Positions 3,198-60,410 of a stretch of DNA of 64,000 nucleotides are shown one piece after another. The position numbers and the translations under genes were made by a program. The notes under the pieces are model-generated. The model did not search any database. It was not told where the DNA came from and saw nothing but the letters and a program-made list of their open reading frames with translations. The DNA is from Sulfuricella sp. (GTDB lineage: Bacteria > Pseudomonadota > Gammaproteobacteria > Burkholderiales > Sulfuricellaceae): positions 1 to 64,000 of the forward strand of contig JAGXQV010000211.1 of NCBI GenBank assembly GCA_018336195.1, written 5' to 3'. Position 1 is the first letter of the stretch. Every line of letters starts with the position of its first letter.

Positions 3198-4505
3198 ATG
3201 CAAAACGGAATCCAAGATTTGCTCGGTGTTGCCATTCCCGCCATCGCGCTGGGCGTGGCGGCGATCATCCTGATGGTGCAACGCGAACTGGGGCCTTTCA
3301 GCCGGCTGTCTACAGGCGGCAAATGGCTGCTGACGGGAGCTTTCGGCATGGGCATTCTGGCCTTTGCCGTGAAGATTTCGGTAGCAGTGGCCGTGACGCG
3401 GATGCCGGTGCCAGTCAGCGCCGCGTCCCCGCCGTTGGAAGCGCCTTCCGCCGTAGCGCAACAAGTCTGGGCTTATCAGCCGGATGCGCCGCAGAAATAC
3501 GTGTGGCAAGCCCTCCCGCAAATGGCGCCGGAACCGCCGGATAATCCCGCCACGCCGGAAAAAATCGCCCTGGGGAAACGCCTGTTCTTTGACAAGGCGT
3601 TATCCGCCGACGGGCAACTTTCCTGCGCCTCCTGTCACGACCTGTACGGCAAGGCCGGCGGCGACGGACGCCGCACCGCGCGCGGCATCGCCGGCCAAAT
3701 CGGCGGACGCAACGCCCCGACGGTGTGGAATGCAGCGTTCCAGTCCCAGTTGTTTTGGGACGGGCGGGCCGCCTCGCTGGAGGAACAGGCCCAAGGGCCG
3801 ATCCTCAATCCGCTGGAAATGGGGATGCCCTCCGCCGCCGCGGTCGAAGCGGTGATCAGAAAAAATCCGCTCTACCAACAAGCCTTCGCCCAGGTTTTCG
3901 GCGCTGAACAGCCCATCACCCTGGCGCGGATTGCCGCCGCCATCGCCGCTTACGAACGCACCCTGATTACCCCCGACGCGCCTTACGACCGCTTCGTGCG
4001 GGGCGACCGGCAAGCCCTCAATCCCCAGCAACTGCGCGGCATGGCGCGCTTCGAGTCGGTGGGCTGCGTCACTTGTCACAAGGGGCCGAATTTCAGCGAT
4101 GCCAGTTTGGTGGGCGGGCAGATTCCCCGGCGGATATTTCCGGCACTGCCGACGGCATTCGAGAAGCGCTTCGACCTGACGCCCGACGGACGAGGCGGCG
4201 GCGTCGAACGCGGCGCGTGGCGCATTCCGTCGCTACGCAACGTGGCGCTGACCGGGCCATATTTTCACAATGGCGCGGTGGAAAAACTCTCCGACGCGGT
4301 GCGCATCATGGCCGGGGCGCAACTGGGCACCCGGATAGGCGCCGCACCCCAGTCCGGCGAATTGTATTGGTCATCCAGAGCGCGGGTGCTCAATCGCGTG
4401 GAGAGTCGCACGCTTAACGAACAGGACGTGGACGACATCGTCGCGTTTCTTCAAGCGCTCAGCAGCGATACGCTGGCCTCGCACGCTGGAAAAAGCGGCG
4501 CCTGA
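3198..4505 (+). CDS. Di-heme cytochrome c peroxidase, membrane-anchored
   Basis: A 435-aa CcpA/MauG-superfamily protein that probably reduces hydrogen peroxide in the periplasm with electrons from a c-type cytochrome. Two heme sites are visible, CASCH near residue 142 and CVTCH near residue 293, with the family landmarks GKRLFFD, NAPTVWNAAF, LFWDGR, NPLEMGMP and FRIPSLRNVALTGPYFHNG-like text (here WRIPSLRNVALTGPYFHNGA). Unusually, the N-terminus has two hydrophobic segments (about residues 7-27 and 43-66) instead of one cleavable signal peptide, so the enzyme is likely tethered to the inner membrane. The ATG at 3198 has GGAGG 7 bases upstream. A Crp/Fnr-type regulator follows. Confidence 0.9.
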   Translation: MQNGIQDLLGVAIPAIALGVAAIILMVQRELGPFSRLSTGGKWLLTGAFGMGILAFAVKISVAVAVTRMPVPVSAASPPLEAPSAVAQQVWAYQPDAPQKYVWQALPQMAPEPPDNPATPEKIALGKRLFFDKALSADGQLSCASCHDLYGKAGGDGRRTARGIAGQIGGRNAPTVWNAAFQSQLFWDGRAASLEEQAQGPILNPLEMGMPSAAAVEAVIRKNPLYQQAFAQVFGAEQPITLARIAAAIAAYERTLITPDAPYDRFVRGDRQALNPQQLRGMARFESVGCVTCHKGPNFSDASLVGGQIPRRIFPALPTAFEKRFDLTPDGRGGGVERGAWRIPSLRNVALTGPYFHNGAVEKLSDAVRIMAGAQLGTRIGAAPQSGELYWSSRARVLNRVESRTLNEQDVDDIVAFLQALSSDTLASHAGKSGA

Positions 4506-8542: not shown

Positions 8543-8830
8543 TCAGGCCGCGATTTTCAGGCGTTCGATGGTAGGCCGTCGGGTGTTGTGTTCCGCTTGC
8601 CACAGATCATAGGCGGCTTGCATGCGCAGCCACATCAGGGCGTCGATCCCTAGCCAGTCTTGCAGGCGCAACGCCATATCCGCGCTGATTGCGGCATGCC
8701 CATTGAGGACGCGCGACAGGGCGGCGCGCGTAACGCCTAATTGCTTTGCGCCTTCGGTAATCGTCACGCCTTCCGGCCAACTGTCCTTGAGAACCGCGCC
8801 CGGATGGGCCGGGTTGTGCATTCGAGTCAT
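8543..8830 (-). CDS. higA: HigA family antitoxin (XRE-type HTH)
   Basis: A 95-aa antitoxin with the HigA signature: NPAHPGAVLKDSWPEG near the start, then the HTH VTITEGAKQLGVTRAALSRV and the LNGHAAISADMALRL helix, followed by WLRMQAAYDLWQA. It neutralises the HigB mRNA-cleaving toxin and represses the operon. It is encoded 9 bp downstream of higB on the same strand, the reversed toxin-first order typical of higBA. The C-terminal tail (ERLKIAA) is also usual for the family. Confidence 0.93.
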   Translation of the reverse strand: MTRMHNPAHPGAVLKDSWPEGVTITEGAKQLGVTRAALSRVLNGHAAISADMALRLQDWLGIDALMWLRMQAAYDLWQAEHNTRRPTIERLKIAA

Positions 8831-8839
8831 CGCAACCTC

Positions 8840-9118
8840 CTAATGGTAATCCAGATAATCGACCAGTTCGGCGTCTTCACCCGAGAAACGGAAGATCACT
8901 CGCCAGTTGCCGTTCACGGTGATTGACCAAAAGTCTTCTAATTCGCCGCTCAAGGGGTGGAGCCGCCATGCCGGGAAATTCATGTCCTGCGGGGAGAGCG
9001 CAACTTCCAGAGCGGTAAGTTGAGCCTGCAACCGAACGGCATGATGGGGCTGGATGCCCGCTTTACTACCGGTGCGGTAGAACGTTTCCAAACCTTTGTG
9101 GCGAAAGTTCTTGATCAC
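8840..9118 (-). CDS. higB: HigB family mRNA-interferase toxin
   Basis: A 92-aa RelE-superfamily toxin. It has the HigB pattern: MIKNFRHKGLETFYRTGSKA, PAWRLHPLSGELEDFWSI, NGNWRVIFRF and the ending LVDYLDYH. Family members cleave ribosome-bound mRNA. The start is a GTG at 9118; family alignments begin at this residue. No Shine-Dalgarno is visible, and a TATACT hexamer (complement of 9128-9133) ends only about 10 bases upstream, so the message may be nearly leaderless. A perfect 17-bp palindrome at 9129-9145 overlaps the promoter. Confidence 0.92.
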   Translation of the reverse strand: MIKNFRHKGLETFYRTGSKAGIQPHHAVRLQAQLTALEVALSPQDMNFPAWRLHPLSGELEDFWSITVNGNWRVIFRFSGEDAELVDYLDYH

Positions 9119-9128
9119 GGCGTTTATA

Positions 9129-9145
9129 GTATAGCAATGCTATAC
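9129..9145. promoter_or_regulatory. higBA operator palindrome
   Basis: GTATAGCAATGCTATAC is a perfect 17-bp odd-centred palindrome 10 bp upstream of the higB start codon and overlapping its likely -10 hexamer. Position and symmetry fit autorepression by HigA. Confidence 0.75.
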
Positions 9146-9227
9146 GTCCGGCAATCTTGAACTTTGACGATGTGGTGCGTGATAGTGCTGAAATTGGTAC
9201 GCATTCGCCGATGAGCGGCTTTCGGTC

Positions 9228-9254
9228 CCCGGATTCCGCTGCGCTGCATCCGGG
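9228..9254. repeat. REP-like hairpin at the mnmA stop codon
   Basis: CCCGGAT and ATCCGGG enclose TCCGCTGCGCTGC; the hairpin ends one base before the mnmA stop codon. A second copy with the same core lies behind vapC (20441-20467). It may act as a terminator or mRNA 3' stabiliser. Confidence 0.75.
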
Positions 9255-9255
9255 T

Positions 9256-10329
9256 TTACTGTATCACTCCGCCGCCCAAACACACTTCGCTGTCGTAGAG
9301 CACCACCGATTGCCCCGGCGTGACTGCCCATTGCGGCTGGGCGAAGGCGATGTCGCAACTCTCCGCATCCACCCGCACTACCGAGCAGGGAGCGTCGGCC
9401 TGGCGGTAGCGGGTTTTGGCGGCATACACCCATTCCGGGTGGGGGGCTGTGCCGCTCACCCAGGAGAGGTCGGCGGCGCGTAGGCTTTCTTTCAGCAACA
9501 GCGGGTGTCCGTGGCCTTGCACCACGATCAGGCGGTTGTTGGTCATGTCCTTGGCGGCGACGAACCACGGCTCGCCTTGGCCGCCGATGCCCAAACCTTG
9601 GCGCTGGCCGAGGGTGTGGTAGGCGAGTCCCTGGTGTTGGCCCATCACCTTGCCTTCCGGGGTGACCATCTCGCCCGGTGTGCGCGGCAGGTAGCGTTCG
9701 AGGAATTCGCGGAACGGGCGCTCGCCGATGAAGCAGATGCCGGTGCTGTCTTTCTTGGCGTGTACCGGCAGATTGGCAGCACGGGCGATTTCGCGGACTT
9801 CGCGCTTGTACAGTTCGCCGAGTGGGAACAGGGTCTTGGAAAGCTGCGCCTGGTTGAGGCGATGCAGGAAATAGCTTTGATCCTTGCCGCCGTCTTCGGC
9901 CTTGAGTAACTGGAACAGGCCGAATTGCTCGCGGACTCGGGCGTAGTGGCCGGTGGCGATTTTCTCGGCGCCCAGGCTGATGGCGTGGTCGAGGAAGGCC
10001 TTGAACTTGATTTCGGCATTGCACAGCACGTCCGGGTTGGGGGTGCGCCCGGCTTGGTATTCGCTCAAGAACAGGGCGAATACCCGTTCCTTGTATTCCT
10101 TGGCGAAATTCACCGCTTCGACTTCGATGCCGATCTTGTCGGCCACCGCCAGCACGTCCATGAAATCCTGCTTGGCGGGACAATCGCCGTCCGCCGTGTC
10201 GTCGTCTTCCCAGTTCTTCATGAACAGGCCGACCACTTCATAGCCCTGGCGTTTGAGCAACAGCGCCGCTACCGAGGAATCCACCCCGCCCGACATGCCC
10301 ACCACGATCCTGCCGTTGCTCATGTTCAT
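9256..10329 (-). CDS. mnmA: tRNA-specific 2-thiouridylase MnmA
   Basis: MnmA thiolates U34 of tRNA-Glu, -Gln and -Lys using ATP and sulfur relayed from IscS. The 357-aa protein has the PP-loop [13 protein letters not shown] (about residues 10-22), the first catalytic cysteine in NPDVLCN near residue 103 and the second in [10 protein letters not shown] near residue 201, plus the [13 protein letters not shown] and C-terminal beta-barrel segments. An ATG at 10323 is an alternative start. It follows nudJ with only a few bases between, the same neighbour order known from E. coli (ymfB/nudJ-mnmA). Confidence 0.97.
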
Positions 10330-10896: not shown

Positions 10897-11166
10897 ATGC
10901 CCGCCATCAGCATGTTTTACGGGATCATTATTTCCATGTATTTCATGGATAACCAGAGGCACCACTTTCCCCATATCCATGTCGAATATCAGGGAGTGGA
11001 AGCGATCATTGCCTTGCCTTCCGGAGAATTGTTGGAGGGACAGATTCCAACCAATAAATTGAAACTGGTTCAAGCCTGGATCGAAATCCACCAGGAAGAA
11101 CTGATGATGGATTGGACTCTGGCTTTGCGCGGCGCCCCTGTTTTCAAGATTGAACCATTACATTAA
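10897..11166 (+). CDS. DUF4160 domain protein
   Basis: An 89-aa protein of the DUF4160 family: it starts MPAISMFYGIIISMYFMDNQ and has the hallmark HHFPHIHVEYQG, followed by a strand-turn segment ALPSGELLEG and a helix with WIEIHQEEL. GGAGGAA lies 7 bases before the ATG. Genes of this family are very often followed directly by a DUF2442 gene, as here, and the pair has been listed as a possible toxin-antitoxin-like module; the biochemical role is unknown. AT content is slightly higher than in neighbours. Confidence 0.85.
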   Translation: MPAISMFYGIIISMYFMDNQRHHFPHIHVEYQGVEAIIALPSGELLEGQIPTNKLKLVQAWIEIHQEELMMDWTLALRGAPVFKIEPLH

Positions 11167-20474: not shown

Positions 20475-20909
20475 TTAAGGCTTTAGCACCGTAACCGTAC
20501 TCGCCTTCATCAGGCGGCGGAATCCCTTGTCGAACGTGACCAGATGCAGGTGGTGCGACTGGGCTGCGGCGGCAATCCAGGCATCCGGGATGGCGTTGCC
20601 GGTCAGGCTGTGTCGCTCGCAAAGCTGTTCGAAAAGCGGCCATTCTTCCCGCAAAGGAAGCGAAGTCACGCCGGGAGCCTCCAGGACTGCGCGTAAAAAG
20701 GCCAGGGCGGCATCGGTGGGGGTGGGATCGACAAACACTTTTGGATGTGTCACCAGGCGTAGAAAACCGGAGGCAACCATGGGCAGGATCGCCACAGGCC
20801 GCCCCGTGGCGGCGCCATCCAATGCCGCTTCCAACCACGTCAGCGCAGGGGCATGGTGCGGATGATCCTGGCGCGAGGCGGCCACCAGTACGTTCACATC
20901 AGGCGTCAC
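20475..20909 (-). CDS. VapC-like PIN-domain toxin
   Basis: A 144-aa PIN-domain protein, probably a site-specific RNase toxin. The N-terminal acidic residue (PDVNVLVAA), the mid-protein aspartate in NAIPDAWIAAAA near residue 107 and FDKGFRRL near 128 supply the expected acidic cluster. Translation starts at GTG 20909, whose GTGA overlaps the antitoxin stop by four bases, indicating coupled translation. It resembles the subgroup with THPKVF and a leading NVLVAA. The gene order antitoxin-toxin is normal for vapBC. Confidence 0.87.
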   Translation of the reverse strand: MTPDVNVLVAASRQDHPHHAPALTWLEAALDGAATGRPVAILPMVASGFLRLVTHPKVFVDPTPTDAALAFLRAVLEAPGVTSLPLREEWPLFEQLCERHSLTGNAIPDAWIAAAAQSHHLHLVTFDKGFRRLMKASTVTVLKP

Positions 20910-21154
20910 GGCGTGTCATCCGCGGCATCGAGCAAGGCCCGATTGCTCAGTGTGTCCGCAACCGTTGTTTGTAGTCCTTGCTTTCCGGCGTAGACCGGAA
21001 GCGTGGGACGTTGCCGGTTGGCTGGCGTTGTCGGCGTGCGCAGCCGTAACGCCAGCCCTTGTTCGATAAGCCGGGTCAGACTGGTATGCTCTTTGGCCGC
21101 CAACAGCTTGGCCTGGGTCAGCAAGCCATCGTCAATATCCAGCGTGGTTCTCAT
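20906..21154 (-). CDS. VapB-like antitoxin (ribbon-helix-helix)
   Basis: An 82-aa antitoxin. MRTTLDIDDGLLTQAKLLAA is a typical ribbon-helix-helix DNA-binding start, followed by HTSLTRLIEQGLALRL and a flexible toxin-binding tail rich in T and P. ATG 21154 has AAGGGTA 4 bases upstream; an in-frame ATG at 21193 would add residues unlike the family. It overlaps the toxin gene by four bases. It likely represses its own promoter, which lies in the 98-bp gap to the hydrolase gene. Confidence 0.87.
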   Translation of the reverse strand: MRTTLDIDDGLLTQAKLLAAKEHTSLTRLIEQGLALRLRTPTTPANRQRPTLPVYAGKQGLQTTVADTLSNRALLDAADDTP

Positions 21155-21252
21155 GATTACCCTTGGATGGAAAAACGGTGCAGATTTATGCATACTTTAC
21201 CTCTGGGGGGTAAGGAGATCAACCTTGTGTTTCCTTGAACTGCCAAGTCCCG

Positions 21253-23057: not shown

Positions 23058-23101
23058 TCGGCAATGGCGGGGATTTCCTCATGCCTGCCCCCCATTGCCG
23101 A
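23058..23101. promoter_or_regulatory. Hairpin in the hrcA leader
   Basis: TCGGCAATGG (23058-23067) and CCATTGCCGA (23092-23101) are perfect complements, with inner G and C runs that extend the stem. The element lies 31 bp upstream of the hrcA start, in the gap between divergent genes. It resembles the CAATGGGC-type units between dnaK and dnaJ. No CIRCE operator is seen here. Confidence 0.6.
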
Positions 23102-23132: not shown

Positions 23133-24152
23133 ATGGTTGACCAACGCGCCCGCATCCTTCTCAAAACCCTGGTCGAACGCTACATCAGCGACGGCCAGCC
23201 GGTCGGCTCGCGCACGCTTTCCAAGTATTCCGGCCTGGACCTGTCGCCCGCCACCATCCGCAACGTGATGTCCGATCTCGAAGAGCTGGGGTTCATCACC
23301 AGTCCGCATACTTCCGCGGGGCGCATTCCGACGCCGCGCGGCTACCGCTTCTTCGTCGATTCGCTGCTCACCGTGCAGTCGCTCGGCGCGCTGGAAGTCC
23401 ATCAACTGGAAAACCAGCTTCATCCCAGCGATCCGCAGAAGCTGATTACCTCGGCGTCGCGCCTGCTCTCCGACCTGACCACCTTCGCCGGCATCGTGAT
23501 GACGCCCAGGCGGCGTAGCGACGCCTTTCGTCACATCGAATTCCTGCGCCTCTCCGACAAGCGCATTCTGCTGATCCTGGTGACCGCCGACGAAGTCGTG
23601 CAAAACCGCATCCTTTTCACCGAGCGCGATTACAGCGCCGGCGAACTTGTCGAAGCGGGGAATTTCTTCAACCAGCACTACGTCGGCTGCACCCTCGAAG
23701 ACGTGCGCGGCAAGATGCGGGACGAACTGAAACGCCTGCATCGCGACATGAGCGCGCTGATGAGCGCCGCCGTCGAAGCCGGCAGCGACGTGATGAGCGC
23801 GGCCAGCGAGGATTACGTGATTTCCGGCGAAAGTAAACTGCTCCACGTTCAGGATCTCTCAACCAACATGGTGAGCCTGCGCAAGCTGTTCGACGCCTTC
23901 GAGCAGAAAACCGAACTCCTGCAACTGCTCGACGTGACCCAGCAGGCGCAAGGCGTGCAAATCTTCATCGGCGGCGATTCGGAACACGTTCCGCTCGACG
24001 AATGCAGCATCGTCACCGCCCCCTACGAAGTCGATGGACGCATCGTCGGCACCGTCGGGGTGATCGGCCCGACCCGCATGGCCTACGAACGGGTAATCCC
24101 GATCGTGGACATCACCGCCAAGCTGCTGTCGAGCGCGTTGTCGTATCACTGA
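23133..24152 (+). CDS. hrcA: Heat-inducible transcription repressor HrcA
   Basis: HrcA represses class I heat-shock genes by binding CIRCE sites. The 339-aa protein has the family start ([17 protein letters not shown]), the winged helix with [20 protein letters not shown] and [20 protein letters not shown], and the C-terminal [18 protein letters not shown] 23133 is chosen by alignment; no strong Shine-Dalgarno is visible, and an upstream in-frame ATG at 23064 would add a non-family tail that includes the leader hairpin. In relatives hemH follows directly; here the ptuA-ptuB pair is inserted. Confidence 0.96.
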
Positions 24153-24189
24153 ATCCGGCGCCGTCTGGTCGGATATTTTCGGAAAAATC

Positions 24190-25545
24190 ATGAGACATAG
24201 TTATCGCCTGGAATCCGTTGCCCTGCATGAAGTGGGCGTGTTTGACGACGTGCGCCTGGATTTTCCCCCGCTGCCGCAAAAGGACAGCGAGGAGGACAAG
24301 GCGGAAATTCATTTGTTCACCGGACCGAACGGGTGTGGGAAGAGCACGTTGCTTTATGCGTTGGCGGAAGTGTTTGATGAATTTGGGCGTTTTGGTGACT
24401 TTGATGTAGAAAGGCAGATATATCGAAGGTTTCGTGGCTTGAATAGCAGCATTGAATTTTCATTTCTTGGTGAACGTGGGTGTTACGGGGCAAACAAAAA
24501 TGCCAATAAATTAATTGTTTCTGGATTAATTCAATTATTTAAGTCTACTGGAGATTGTTTTTTTGGCACAAAATCGGACTTGTTGAGGAAGTACAAGGAT
24601 GCGACTTTAGGAGCCAGTAAACGATACATGGGGCACACATTTTCTTTTGCGGTCTTCGCCTATTCGGGGCAGCGCAGTCTGCGCGATACGCCAGTCACCG
24701 CCATCCAGCAAGTCACCAATCCTCTTTTTGAAGCAGCGCTATCCTTCGACGGAGGTAATCGTCCCCAAGTATTACAGCAATGGATCGCCAACAACCGTGC
24801 GCAATCCGCGCTGGCTAAAGCCGATGGAGAAAACGGGGCTGCGGCAATCTACGACCAGGCTCTCGCACGTATTACTAGCCTGATCCGCGATGTCTGCGAC
24901 TTGGAATTGGAATTCCGCCTGGAACGCTCGCCGCTGGCGGTGGTCGCCCGATTGAATGGGGAAACCGTGCATTTCGATAGCCTGCCCGACGGCCTGAAAT
25001 CCATCATCAGTTGGGTTGGTGACTTGGCCTTGCGTCTCGAAGCCATCCCCTGGAAAGAACCGGGGGATGTGTTCGCCCAGCCGGTTATCCTGTTTCTCGA
25101 CGAGGTGGACATCCACCTGCATCCCAAGTGGCAGCGGCGCATTCTGCCGGCCATTCAGAAGCTGCTGCCCAACGGTCAGGTCTTTGTTTCCACGCATTCG
25201 CCTTTTGTTGTTGGTTCGGTCGAGGACGCTTGGGTTTATAAGCTGCCGGAAGGCGGACACACTGCCGGTACCATAGCGGCCATTCCTTCCGGGGCGGGTA
25301 AGAGTTATCGGCTGATACTCGAAGAGGTGTTTGGTATCGAAGGCGAATTCGATGTCGAGACCGAAGGACTGTTCGAGGAATTTTACAGGCTGCGCGAAGT
25401 GTTTTTGAAAGACCCGTCCAACCCCCAAGCCTTGTTGGAAGCAGCCGCCAAATTGGCGGAGCGCGGCGAGGAGGCGAAGTTGATCGTTGCCCGCGAGTTG
25501 CGTCAAATCGCGCGGATTTCCGGGAAGGAACTGGGTCTTGCGTAA
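24190..25545 (+). CDS. ptuA: Septu-type defence ATPase PtuA-like
   Basis: A 451-aa ABC/SMC-like AAA ATPase. Walker A GPNGCGKST is near residue 46, Walker B VILFLDEVD near 299, with HLHPKWQRR following and the H-loop STHSPF near 333; the C-terminus is helical. It lacks a TOPRIM nuclease domain, so it is not an OLD protein. The downstream gene, overlapping by 8 bases, encodes a PtuB-type HNH nuclease, the defining partner of Septu anti-phage systems. Residues about 66-155 (24385-24655) are strikingly AT-rich compared with both flanks. No retron reverse transcriptase is nearby. Confidence 0.82.
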   Translation: MRHSYRLESVALHEVGVFDDVRLDFPPLPQKDSEEDKAEIHLFTGPNGCGKSTLLYALAEVFDEFGRFGDFDVERQIYRRFRGLNSSIEFSFLGERGCYGANKNANKLIVSGLIQLFKSTGDCFFGTKSDLLRKYKDATLGASKRYMGHTFSFAVFAYSGQRSLRDTPVTAIQQVTNPLFEAALSFDGGNRPQVLQQWIANNRAQSALAKADGENGAAAIYDQALARITSLIRDVCDLELEFRLERSPLAVVARLNGETVHFDSLPDGLKSIISWVGDLALRLEAIPWKEPGDVFAQPVILFLDEVDIHLHPKWQRRILPAIQKLLPNGQVFVSTHSPFVVGSVEDAWVYKLPEGGHTAGTIAAIPSGAGKSYRLILEEVFGIEGEFDVETEGLFEEFYRLREVFLKDPSNPQALLEAAAKLAERGEEAKLIVARELRQIARISGKELGLA

Positions 25546-26116
25546 GCTCGTCCGGCCAGCCTCGCCGGATTGTCTCGCCGCGAATGCCCAGGCTTGGACA
25601 GGCGATTTTGTCACGGCGCGCGCGCGTGAACCCGACTTTCGCTTTAGCTGGCGCAGCGATCCTTGTTATCGGGAAATTCGCTCCCGACTGTCGGCAATGA
25701 CCCAGGCGCATTGCGCATTTTGCGACGGGCCGGTAGGCGTCGAGAGCCGCGAGACGGTCGAGCATTTCCGCCCCAAGTCGCGCTTCCCTGAATTGGCTTA
25801 CCAATGGGAAAACCTGTTTCCCTGTTGCGATATGTGCCAGTCGAAAAAACTTGAGCGTTTCGACCCGGCGCTATTGAAGCCGGACGAAGCCGACTATGCG
25901 TTCGAGCGTTACTTCGTGGCGAATTACCTAACCGGCAAGGTCGAGCCGCTGCCCGGTTTGGATGACACCACAAAGAAACGGGCGGAAGTCACCATTGCGA
26001 TGTACGGCTTGAATATTGAAGCGCGCAAGATAGCCAGAATTCGCGAGTGGGAAAGCTATTGTCGGGACGCAGCGCCTTGCCTAGACGACTACAGTTACCG
26101 CTTTTTCTTGGCTTGA
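25538..26116 (+). CDS. ptuB: Septu-type HNH endonuclease PtuB-like
   Basis: A 192-aa HNH nuclease of the TIGR02646/PtuB type. The metal- and catalysis-linked motif reads CAFCDG, then [10 protein letters not shown], then [15 protein letters not shown] (residues about 63-110): two CxxC pairs surround the EHFRPKS core. Translation most likely starts at TTG 25538 ([14 protein letters not shown] when initiated), eight bases inside ptuA, because GGAAGGAA lies upstream and the family starts this way. The overlap implies coupled synthesis of the ATPase and nuclease. hemH follows 16 bases after the stop, so the pair may ride on the hrcA-hemH transcript. Confidence 0.85.
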
Positions 26117-26132
26117 AACAGCGAAGGTTGCG

Positions 26133-27302
26133 ATGTCCAGCATGTTTCTCCCCGAACCCCCCTACCGCCACGGCCAACCCGCGCGCACCGCCGTGCTGCT
26201 GGTCAATCTCGGCACCCCGCAAGCGCCCACTGCTGCGGCGGTGCGGCCCTATCTGAAAGAATTCCTCTCCGACCCGCGCGTGGTGGAGATGCCGCGCGTC
26301 CTGTGGTGGCTGATCCTCAACGGCGTCATCCTCAACACCCGCCCCAGGAAATCCGCCGAGAAATACGCACAAGTCTGGATGGCGGAGGGTTCGCCGCTGC
26401 TGGTGCATACGCAACGGCAGGCGGCGTTGCTGGGAGAGTTGCTGGAATTGCCTTTTCCGGCGGACTCCGGGGATGCCCTCACCCCAACCCTCTCCCAGAG
26501 GGAGAGGGGGCAAACGGCTGTCCCCCTGAAAAGCGGGGGGGCAGGTTCTGTTTTGACCGCCTACGCCATGCGCTACGGTCAGCCCTCCATCGCGTCGGTG
26601 CTGGCGAAACTCAAGGAACAAGGTTGCACCCGCATCCTGACCTTGCCGCTCTACCCGCAATATTCGGCGAGCACCACGGCGACGGTGTTCGATGCCTTGT
26701 TTGCGGCGCTGGCGCAGACCCGCAACCAGCCGGAGATCCGCACGGTGCGCGGCTTTCACGACCATCCTGCGTATATCGCGGCACTGGCGGCGAACGTGTG
26801 CGATTTCTGGGCCGCTCACGGCAAGTCGGACAAGCTGTTGATGAGCTTTCACGGGGTGCCGCGCGCGACTCTCGATCTGGGCGACCCTTACCATTGTGAA
26901 TGCCTCAAGACCGGGCGTTTACTGGCGGAGGCGCTGGCGCTCCAGCCCGAGGAATATCGGGTGACCTTTCAGTCGCGCTTCGGGCGTGCCGAGTGGCTGC
27001 AACCCTATACCGCCGCGACTCTGGAGGAACTGGGCAAGCAGGGGGTGAAACGCCTCGATGTGGTATGTCCCGGTTTCGTTGCCGATTGCCTGGAAACCCT
27101 GGAAGAAATTGCGCTGGAGGGTAAGGCCTCTTTCCTCAATGCGGGGGGCGGCGAGTACCGCTACATCCCCGCGCTCAACGAGCATCCGCAATGGATTGCC
27201 GCGCTTGTCGCGATTGCCGGCGAGCATCTGGGCGGCTGGCCGGGCGAGTGCGCCGACCCGCACAGCCGGGAGCGCGCCTTGGCGGCGGGCGCCCCAAACT
27301 GA
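26133..27302 (+). CDS. hemH: Ferrochelatase HemH, with in-frame repeat insertion
   Basis: HemH inserts iron into protoporphyrin IX in the last step of heme synthesis. Family landmarks: [33 protein letters not shown], the active-site histidine in LMSFHGVP near residue 240, [18 protein letters not shown] and [15 protein letters not shown]. The protein (389 aa) is longer than usual because about 30 residues between ELLELPF and YAMRYGQPS are encoded by palindromic repeat DNA ([12 protein letters not shown]). The reading frame stays open and both conserved sides are intact. GAAGG precedes the ATG. Confidence 0.95.
26476..26550. repeat. Palindromic repeat inserted in frame in hemH
   Basis: CCCTCACCCCAACCCTCTCC begins the element. 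Its core has perfect 9-bp arms CCCTCTCCC and GGGAGAGGG around AGA (26488-26508), and a second hairpin CCCCC-tgaaaagc-GGGGG follows (26522-26539). This is a widespread bacterial genomic repeat, often read as PTLSQRERG when it falls inside genes. Confidence 0.85.
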
Positions 27303-59895: not shown

Positions 59896-60120
59896 TTATG
59901 CGGCATAGCGCAAGATTTCGACTTCCGCACCCTTACGGGTGGAGTCCTCGGCGCGTTCCAGCAGGTTGCCGGTGGTGGCTTCACTCAAATAATATTCGCC
60001 GCAATTCTGGCAAACATCCGCCGGCACGCCTTTGAAAATAATGGTTGATTCTTCCCGTTGCAAGGTCACGGTAACGATGCCGGGCAGGGTCTCACCCTGT
60101 TTGCAAATCACGCATTTCAT
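59896..60120 (-). CDS. YgiT-type zinc-finger protein (MqsA N-domain-like)
   Basis: A 74-aa protein with CVICKQG near the N-terminus and CQNCGEYY near residue 36, the two CxxC pairs of the YgiT-type zinc finger, followed by YLSEATTGNLLERAEDS. It lacks the HTH half of full-length MqsA. Such short proteins are usually antitoxin-like partners of DUF4258 proteins, as here, where the two genes overlap by ATGA. It ends 10 bp before lpdA. Confidence 0.85.
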   Translation of the reverse strand: MKCVICKQGETLPGIVTVTLQREESTIIFKGVPADVCQNCGEYYLSEATTGNLLERAEDSTRKGAEVEILRYAA

Positions 60121-60401
60121 GTTGTTCTCCGTTTCTTGAAATCGTCTTGCCACAACGCTGAATCCGGTCGATAACAAGTGACGACATAACAGATATTTTG
60201 CTCATCCTGTGCAGCCGGAACATGCAATGGACCGCTCTCTCCGAAGCCGATTATCAAGTTGCTCGGATATGGCTGGTCATTTGGATATTCCTGAATGATT
60301 TCGCCGTTAGTCAATACGCTCACAATTTCATTTTTTCCGATAGTTCTTTCGAACATGCGTTTTAAAGCATGTCCACTGAAAACAACCCGGCTGCAGTTCA
60401 T
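60117..60401 (-). CDS. DUF4258 protein, likely toxin of a TA pair
   Basis: A 94-aa protein with the DUF4258 pattern: VFSGHALKRMFERTIGKNEI near the start, then GEIIQEYPNDQPYPSNLIIG and the end VVTCYRPDSALWQDDFKKR. The histidine of SGHALKRM and the Y-P-D-x-x-W-x-x-D-F-K-K-R tail resemble RelE-like fold RNase toxins, though activity is inferred. ATG 60401 is preferred over TTG 60404. It overlaps the zinc-finger gene and lies 9 bp downstream of aceF. Confidence 0.82.
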   Translation of the reverse strand: MNCSRVVFSGHALKRMFERTIGKNEIVSVLTNGEIIQEYPNDQPYPSNLIIGFGESGPLHVPAAQDEQNICYVVTCYRPDSALWQDDFKKRRTT

Positions 60402-60410
60402 CAAGGCTCC

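Follow-up and report, generated by a model that had tools for sequence, protein, structure and literature searches.

A stand-alone Septu gene pair, probably acquired horizontally, between hrcA and hemH of a Sulfuricella species

A ptuA-ptuB gene pair occupies the position between hrcA, which encodes a heat-shock regulator, and the ferrochelatase gene hemH in the 64,000-nucleotide stretch of Sulfuricella sp. DNA that was analysed (the window). The pair very probably represents a stand-alone Septu system of type I that was acquired horizontally by the species, became fixed between the two genes and most likely owes its expression to read-through from hrcA. This explanation builds on the identity of the genes, their intact catalytic residues, their linked and overlapping arrangement, the absence of the pair in relatives and its foreign composition.

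Organization of the locus

All four genes lie on the + strand. The heat-inducible transcription repressor gene hrcA (23133..24152) forms the 5' flank and scored 328.7 bits against TIGR00331 (cut-off 197.2). A longer open reading frame opens at 23064; the HrcA model and the relatives place the start at 23133, and the stop codon is 24150-24152. A spacer of 37 bp (24153..24189, + strand) leads to ptuA (24190..25545), which has its ATG at 24190 and its stop at 25543-25545 and encodes an ABC-type ATPase of 451 aa. The gene for the HNH nuclease, ptuB (25538..26116, 192 aa), starts with a TTG at 25538, within the last codons of ptuA, and stops at 26114-26116, resulting in an overlap of 8 bp, TTGCGTAA. 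Behind ptuB, a spacer of 16 bp (26117..26132, + strand) contains an AAGG ribosome-binding-like stretch for hemH (26133..27302). This 3' flank scored 297.7 bits against TIGR00109 (cut-off 124.6) and starts at the ATG at 26133 or possibly three codons later. The overlap, the two spacers and the identities of both flanks had been proposed in the initial annotation; the open reading frame coordinates matched exactly and both flanking proteins were above the cut-offs of their models.

Within hemH, a palindromic CCCTCTCCC repeat at 26488-26508 is read in frame; similar peptides are present at the same place in the hemH of several relatives and absent from others. Small toxin-antitoxin-like genes were also observed in the window at 8543-9118, 20475-21193, 10897-11166 and 60117-60404, comprising HigB with an HTH partner, a PIN toxin with a VapB-like partner, DUF4160 and DUF4258.

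Identity and conserved residues of PtuA and PtuB

The translated pair, suspected from the start to be of Septu type, was compared with PADLOC models, and both proteins matched specific Septu models far beyond chance. PtuA aligned with PDLC00281 over residues 3-447 (E 2.4e-162, 539 bits) and PtuB with PDLC00351 over residues 1-191 (E 3.3e-77); PtuB was additionally above the TIGR02646 cut-off (59.6 vs 52.15 bits). The gene calls were further backed by alignment. Pfam assigned AAA_21 and a weak HNH domain to the pair, and a PDB sequence search gave distant matches to Septu and retron PtuA and PtuB chains (8ee4, 9kjx, 9vh1). PtuA contains a Walker A motif (GPNGCGK51ST), a Q-loop region (AYSGQ161) and a Walker B motif (LFLD304E305), and PtuB carries the expected CAFC, EHFRPKS and CDMC motifs at C59-A-F-C62, E75HFRPKS81 and C97DMC100. 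Among the collected homologues, K51 and D304/E305 of PtuA as well as H76, N92 and the four zinc-type cysteines of PtuB were invariant. Immunity by the E. coli Septu EcB88 requires PtuA K43 or D316 and PtuB H75 or N91 (PMC13096335), and K51, D304/E305 and H76/N92 of the window pair are the same kinds of residue. A structure prediction for PtuB from two sequences reached a pLDDT of only 39. As the features of Septu type I, a PtuA model match, a PtuB model match, adjacent genes on the same strand and the catalytic residues were all found, and judged from its sequence the pair is a genuine and complete Septu pair of known kind, at a new location.

Between Walker A and the Q-loop, PtuA has a hypervariable segment (residues 63-150; 24376..24639, + strand) with 18-24% identity to homologues, compared with 45-81% in other segments. 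The segment is AT-rich, with a GC content of 0.39 vs 0.55-0.57 elsewhere in ptuA, and the dip was also visible in the GC scan. Its AT-richness compared with the remaining gene was seen in the window and in the homologues of genomes G752 and G463, but not in that of G137. To ascribe sensing or specificity to the segment would be a guess; it provides a testable lead on what the ATPase senses.

Insertion between hrcA and hemH

In 15 of the 20 family relatives that have hrcA, hrcA and hemH are directly adjacent without Septu, and this adjacency extended to most of the further genomes checked across the order. The empty site agrees with the initial proposal of an insertion between otherwise neighbouring genes, and the pair is not ancestral at the locus. 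Using the PtuA subtype model at a threshold of E 1e-40, the subtype was detected in 2 of 399 genomes of the order, namely this genome and G137, where it stands at a different locus, and in 5 of 398 genomes of the phylum, its own included. A PtuA search of 80 relatives returned no close match (best 30% identity over ~150 residues). Genome contigs yielded a single near relative, in a groundwater betaproteobacterial MAG (L043), which is 77% identical over residues 308-451; viral contigs contained no close relative, and plasmids only distant ones, all with <60% identity. The GC3 values of ptuA (0.59) and ptuB (0.66) are below those of hrcA (0.81) and hemH (0.78), and the GC content of the pair is also low for the region. 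Because hrcA and hemH adjoin each other without Septu in relatives and the subtype is rare in the order, the pair is, on this comparative evidence, a recent acquisition.

Regarding the insertion itself, no flanking direct repeat of at least 8 bp and no integrase were found, and the window has no tRNA. A faint likeness exists between the bases that follow ptuB (TGAAACAGC) and the bases that follow hrcA in some relatives (TGAAAACAGC); it could mark the insertion point and is too short to weigh. Although the assembly has 7% contamination, misassembly is unlikely because both flanks are native, sharing 84% (hrcA) and about 74% (hemH) identity with the same-genus relative.

The gap between hrcA and hemH is also occupied in other genomes. 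The same-genus relative (G001) has hicB-hicA in this position, of which the HicA toxin was recognized by Pfam PF07927 (E 9e-10), and HicB, which had no Pfam match, was named from its position and form. The gap holds an intact hicBA in G021, a remnant in G019, and rhodanese and chemoreceptor genes in G005; in G016 hemH was not found within 4 kb. In the three relatives with this pair or its remnant, it was located on L047 (about 3916-4300), L057 (about 3360-4000) and L018 (about 784-1129, a hicB remnant), and it begins immediately after the stop codon of hrcA. These hicBA copies resemble one another and may go back to a single old event, which would leave only two independent immune-type arrivals in the slot. 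The pattern of use is suggestive of a hotspot, not proof of one.

The ptuA-ptuB pairing is kept in the homologues of other genomes, and the overlap TTGCGTAA is the same in G137 and G463. As read from translations, the G137 pair is flanked by rlmB-like methyltransferase and amidase genes and the G752 pair by fdhD and superoxide dismutase genes; these neighbours suggest that the Septu branch usually inserts bare between core genes. Two broken relatives were observed: the ptuA of L043 (7531-7962) has no residues 1-307, and the ptuB of G463 (L052, about 8875-9280) has no HNH core.

Expression and alternative explanations

Read-through from hrcA is the likely route of ptuAB expression because the spacers are short and neither an intrinsic terminator nor a sigma-70-type promoter was found on the + strand from hrcA to hemH, the 37-bp spacer included. 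The initial annotation had gone further and envisaged a heat-shock-linked transcript, such that the heat-shock circuit would control ptuAB through its place behind hrcA and tie defence to stress. Besides the close, terminator-free spacing of hrcA and ptuA, the presence of grpE, dnaK and dnaJ about 8-11 kb downstream speaks for such an operon. However, the window contained no CIRCE at up to 3 mismatches, with none at hrcA, and the three CIRCEs of the genome (L094, L095, L096) precede groES-groEL and two rpoH genes, an arrangement in which HrcA would stand above sigma-32. The sigma-32-like sites ahead of hrcA and ptuA were not above shuffled sequence, the best one upstream of hrcA scoring 9 compared with a shuffle mean of 8.7, and homologous pairs in other genomes adjoin unrelated genes. 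The likely co-transcription with hrcA by itself gives no evidence of stress control, and a stress-tied defence operon is very unlikely.

It is even harder to maintain that ptuAB is the effector part of a retron I-A that had its reverse transcriptase lost or displaced, a reading to which we give almost no weight. The best-named NCBIfam matches are indeed the retron Ec78 PtuA and PtuB equivalogs, and retron effectors are among the solved relatives, but the equivalog scores were far under the cut-offs (103 of 500 and 71 of 150 bits), whereas the stand-alone Septu model fits PtuA at the 539 bits given above. No RVT_1 match was obtained in the whole genome, with the control search positive in three reference genomes, and no Rfam family, a retron RNA included, was matched in the region around the locus (18-34 kb). 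As the genome has no reverse transcriptase, the pair is read as a stand-alone Septu and not as a retron. Among ten neighbouring proteins tested with PADLOC there was no other defence system, matches being confined to shared ATPase or regulator domains, e.g., of recN; the pair had been described as having neither a retron nor another defence gene beside it, and on both points this was correct. A decaying or silent insert, tolerated since hemH is undisturbed, is very unlikely: two of the five related Septu loci are broken, but both genes in the window are intact and all catalytic residues are present.

The same assembly contains a second, divergent Septu pair on L002 (contig C23 of G000), at 649-2148 and about 2148-2885. 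It likewise consists of an ATPase and an HNH protein (PtuA, PDLC00278, E 6e-129; PtuB, PDLC00315, E 4e-75). The contig could be foreign because of the 7% contamination of the assembly.

Discussion

For the stand-alone Septu pair between hrcA and hemH, we infer assembly, trigger and target from characterized systems, and co-transcription from the layout of the locus. By homology, the ABC-type ATPase PtuA would oligomerize with the HNH nuclease PtuB; E. coli PtuAB reportedly assembles into a large oligomer, according to Li et al. in 2024. The complex would be kept inactive until infection, upon which PtuB would cut nucleic acid and halt phage growth, which would be costly for the cell. The target may be nicked or phage DNA, or tRNA-Tyr: nicked or phage DNA has been reported for PtuAB of ATCC25922, and tRNA-Tyr for retron Eco7 and Septu EcB88 (PMC11555353, PMC13096335).

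The link between stress and defence, which was the attraction of the find, is not supported. The system is ordinary in kind and its place is new, and since nothing ties the pair to the heat-shock response, the find is a fairly ordinary one. What it contributes is a complete pair from a divergent Septu branch, along with a clear comparison with relatives that are without it, and this can help to address the question of how small defence systems become part of core gene rows in the absence of mobile elements. A more speculative idea, to which we assign a low probability, is that the family has, just after the stop codon of hrcA, a small exchange slot without an integrase that takes up immune and toxin-antitoxin cassettes: the sister species and two others have hicBA there, and the window has Septu. 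In broader terms, the branch to which this Septu belongs would spread as a bare two-gene cassette between core genes, with the hypervariable AT-rich part of PtuA possibly carrying sensing or target specificity.

Among known systems, the effectors of retron I-A (Ec78/Eco7, Ec83/Eco4) include PtuA and PtuB homologous to the window pair, which differs in having no reverse transcriptase or msr-msd and in scoring below the retron equivalog cut-offs. The L002 pair belongs to another Septu subtype, its PtuA being ~29% identical to the window PtuA over 120 residues. Septu type I of E. coli (ATCC25922, EcB88) likewise consists of two adjacent genes, an ABC-type ATPase followed by an HNH nuclease, with the same catalytic motifs and no further gene. 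Compared with the E. coli systems, the window pair is a divergent branch, the nearest full-length PtuA found being 57% identical, and its surroundings are a row of housekeeping genes instead of a defence island or mobile element.
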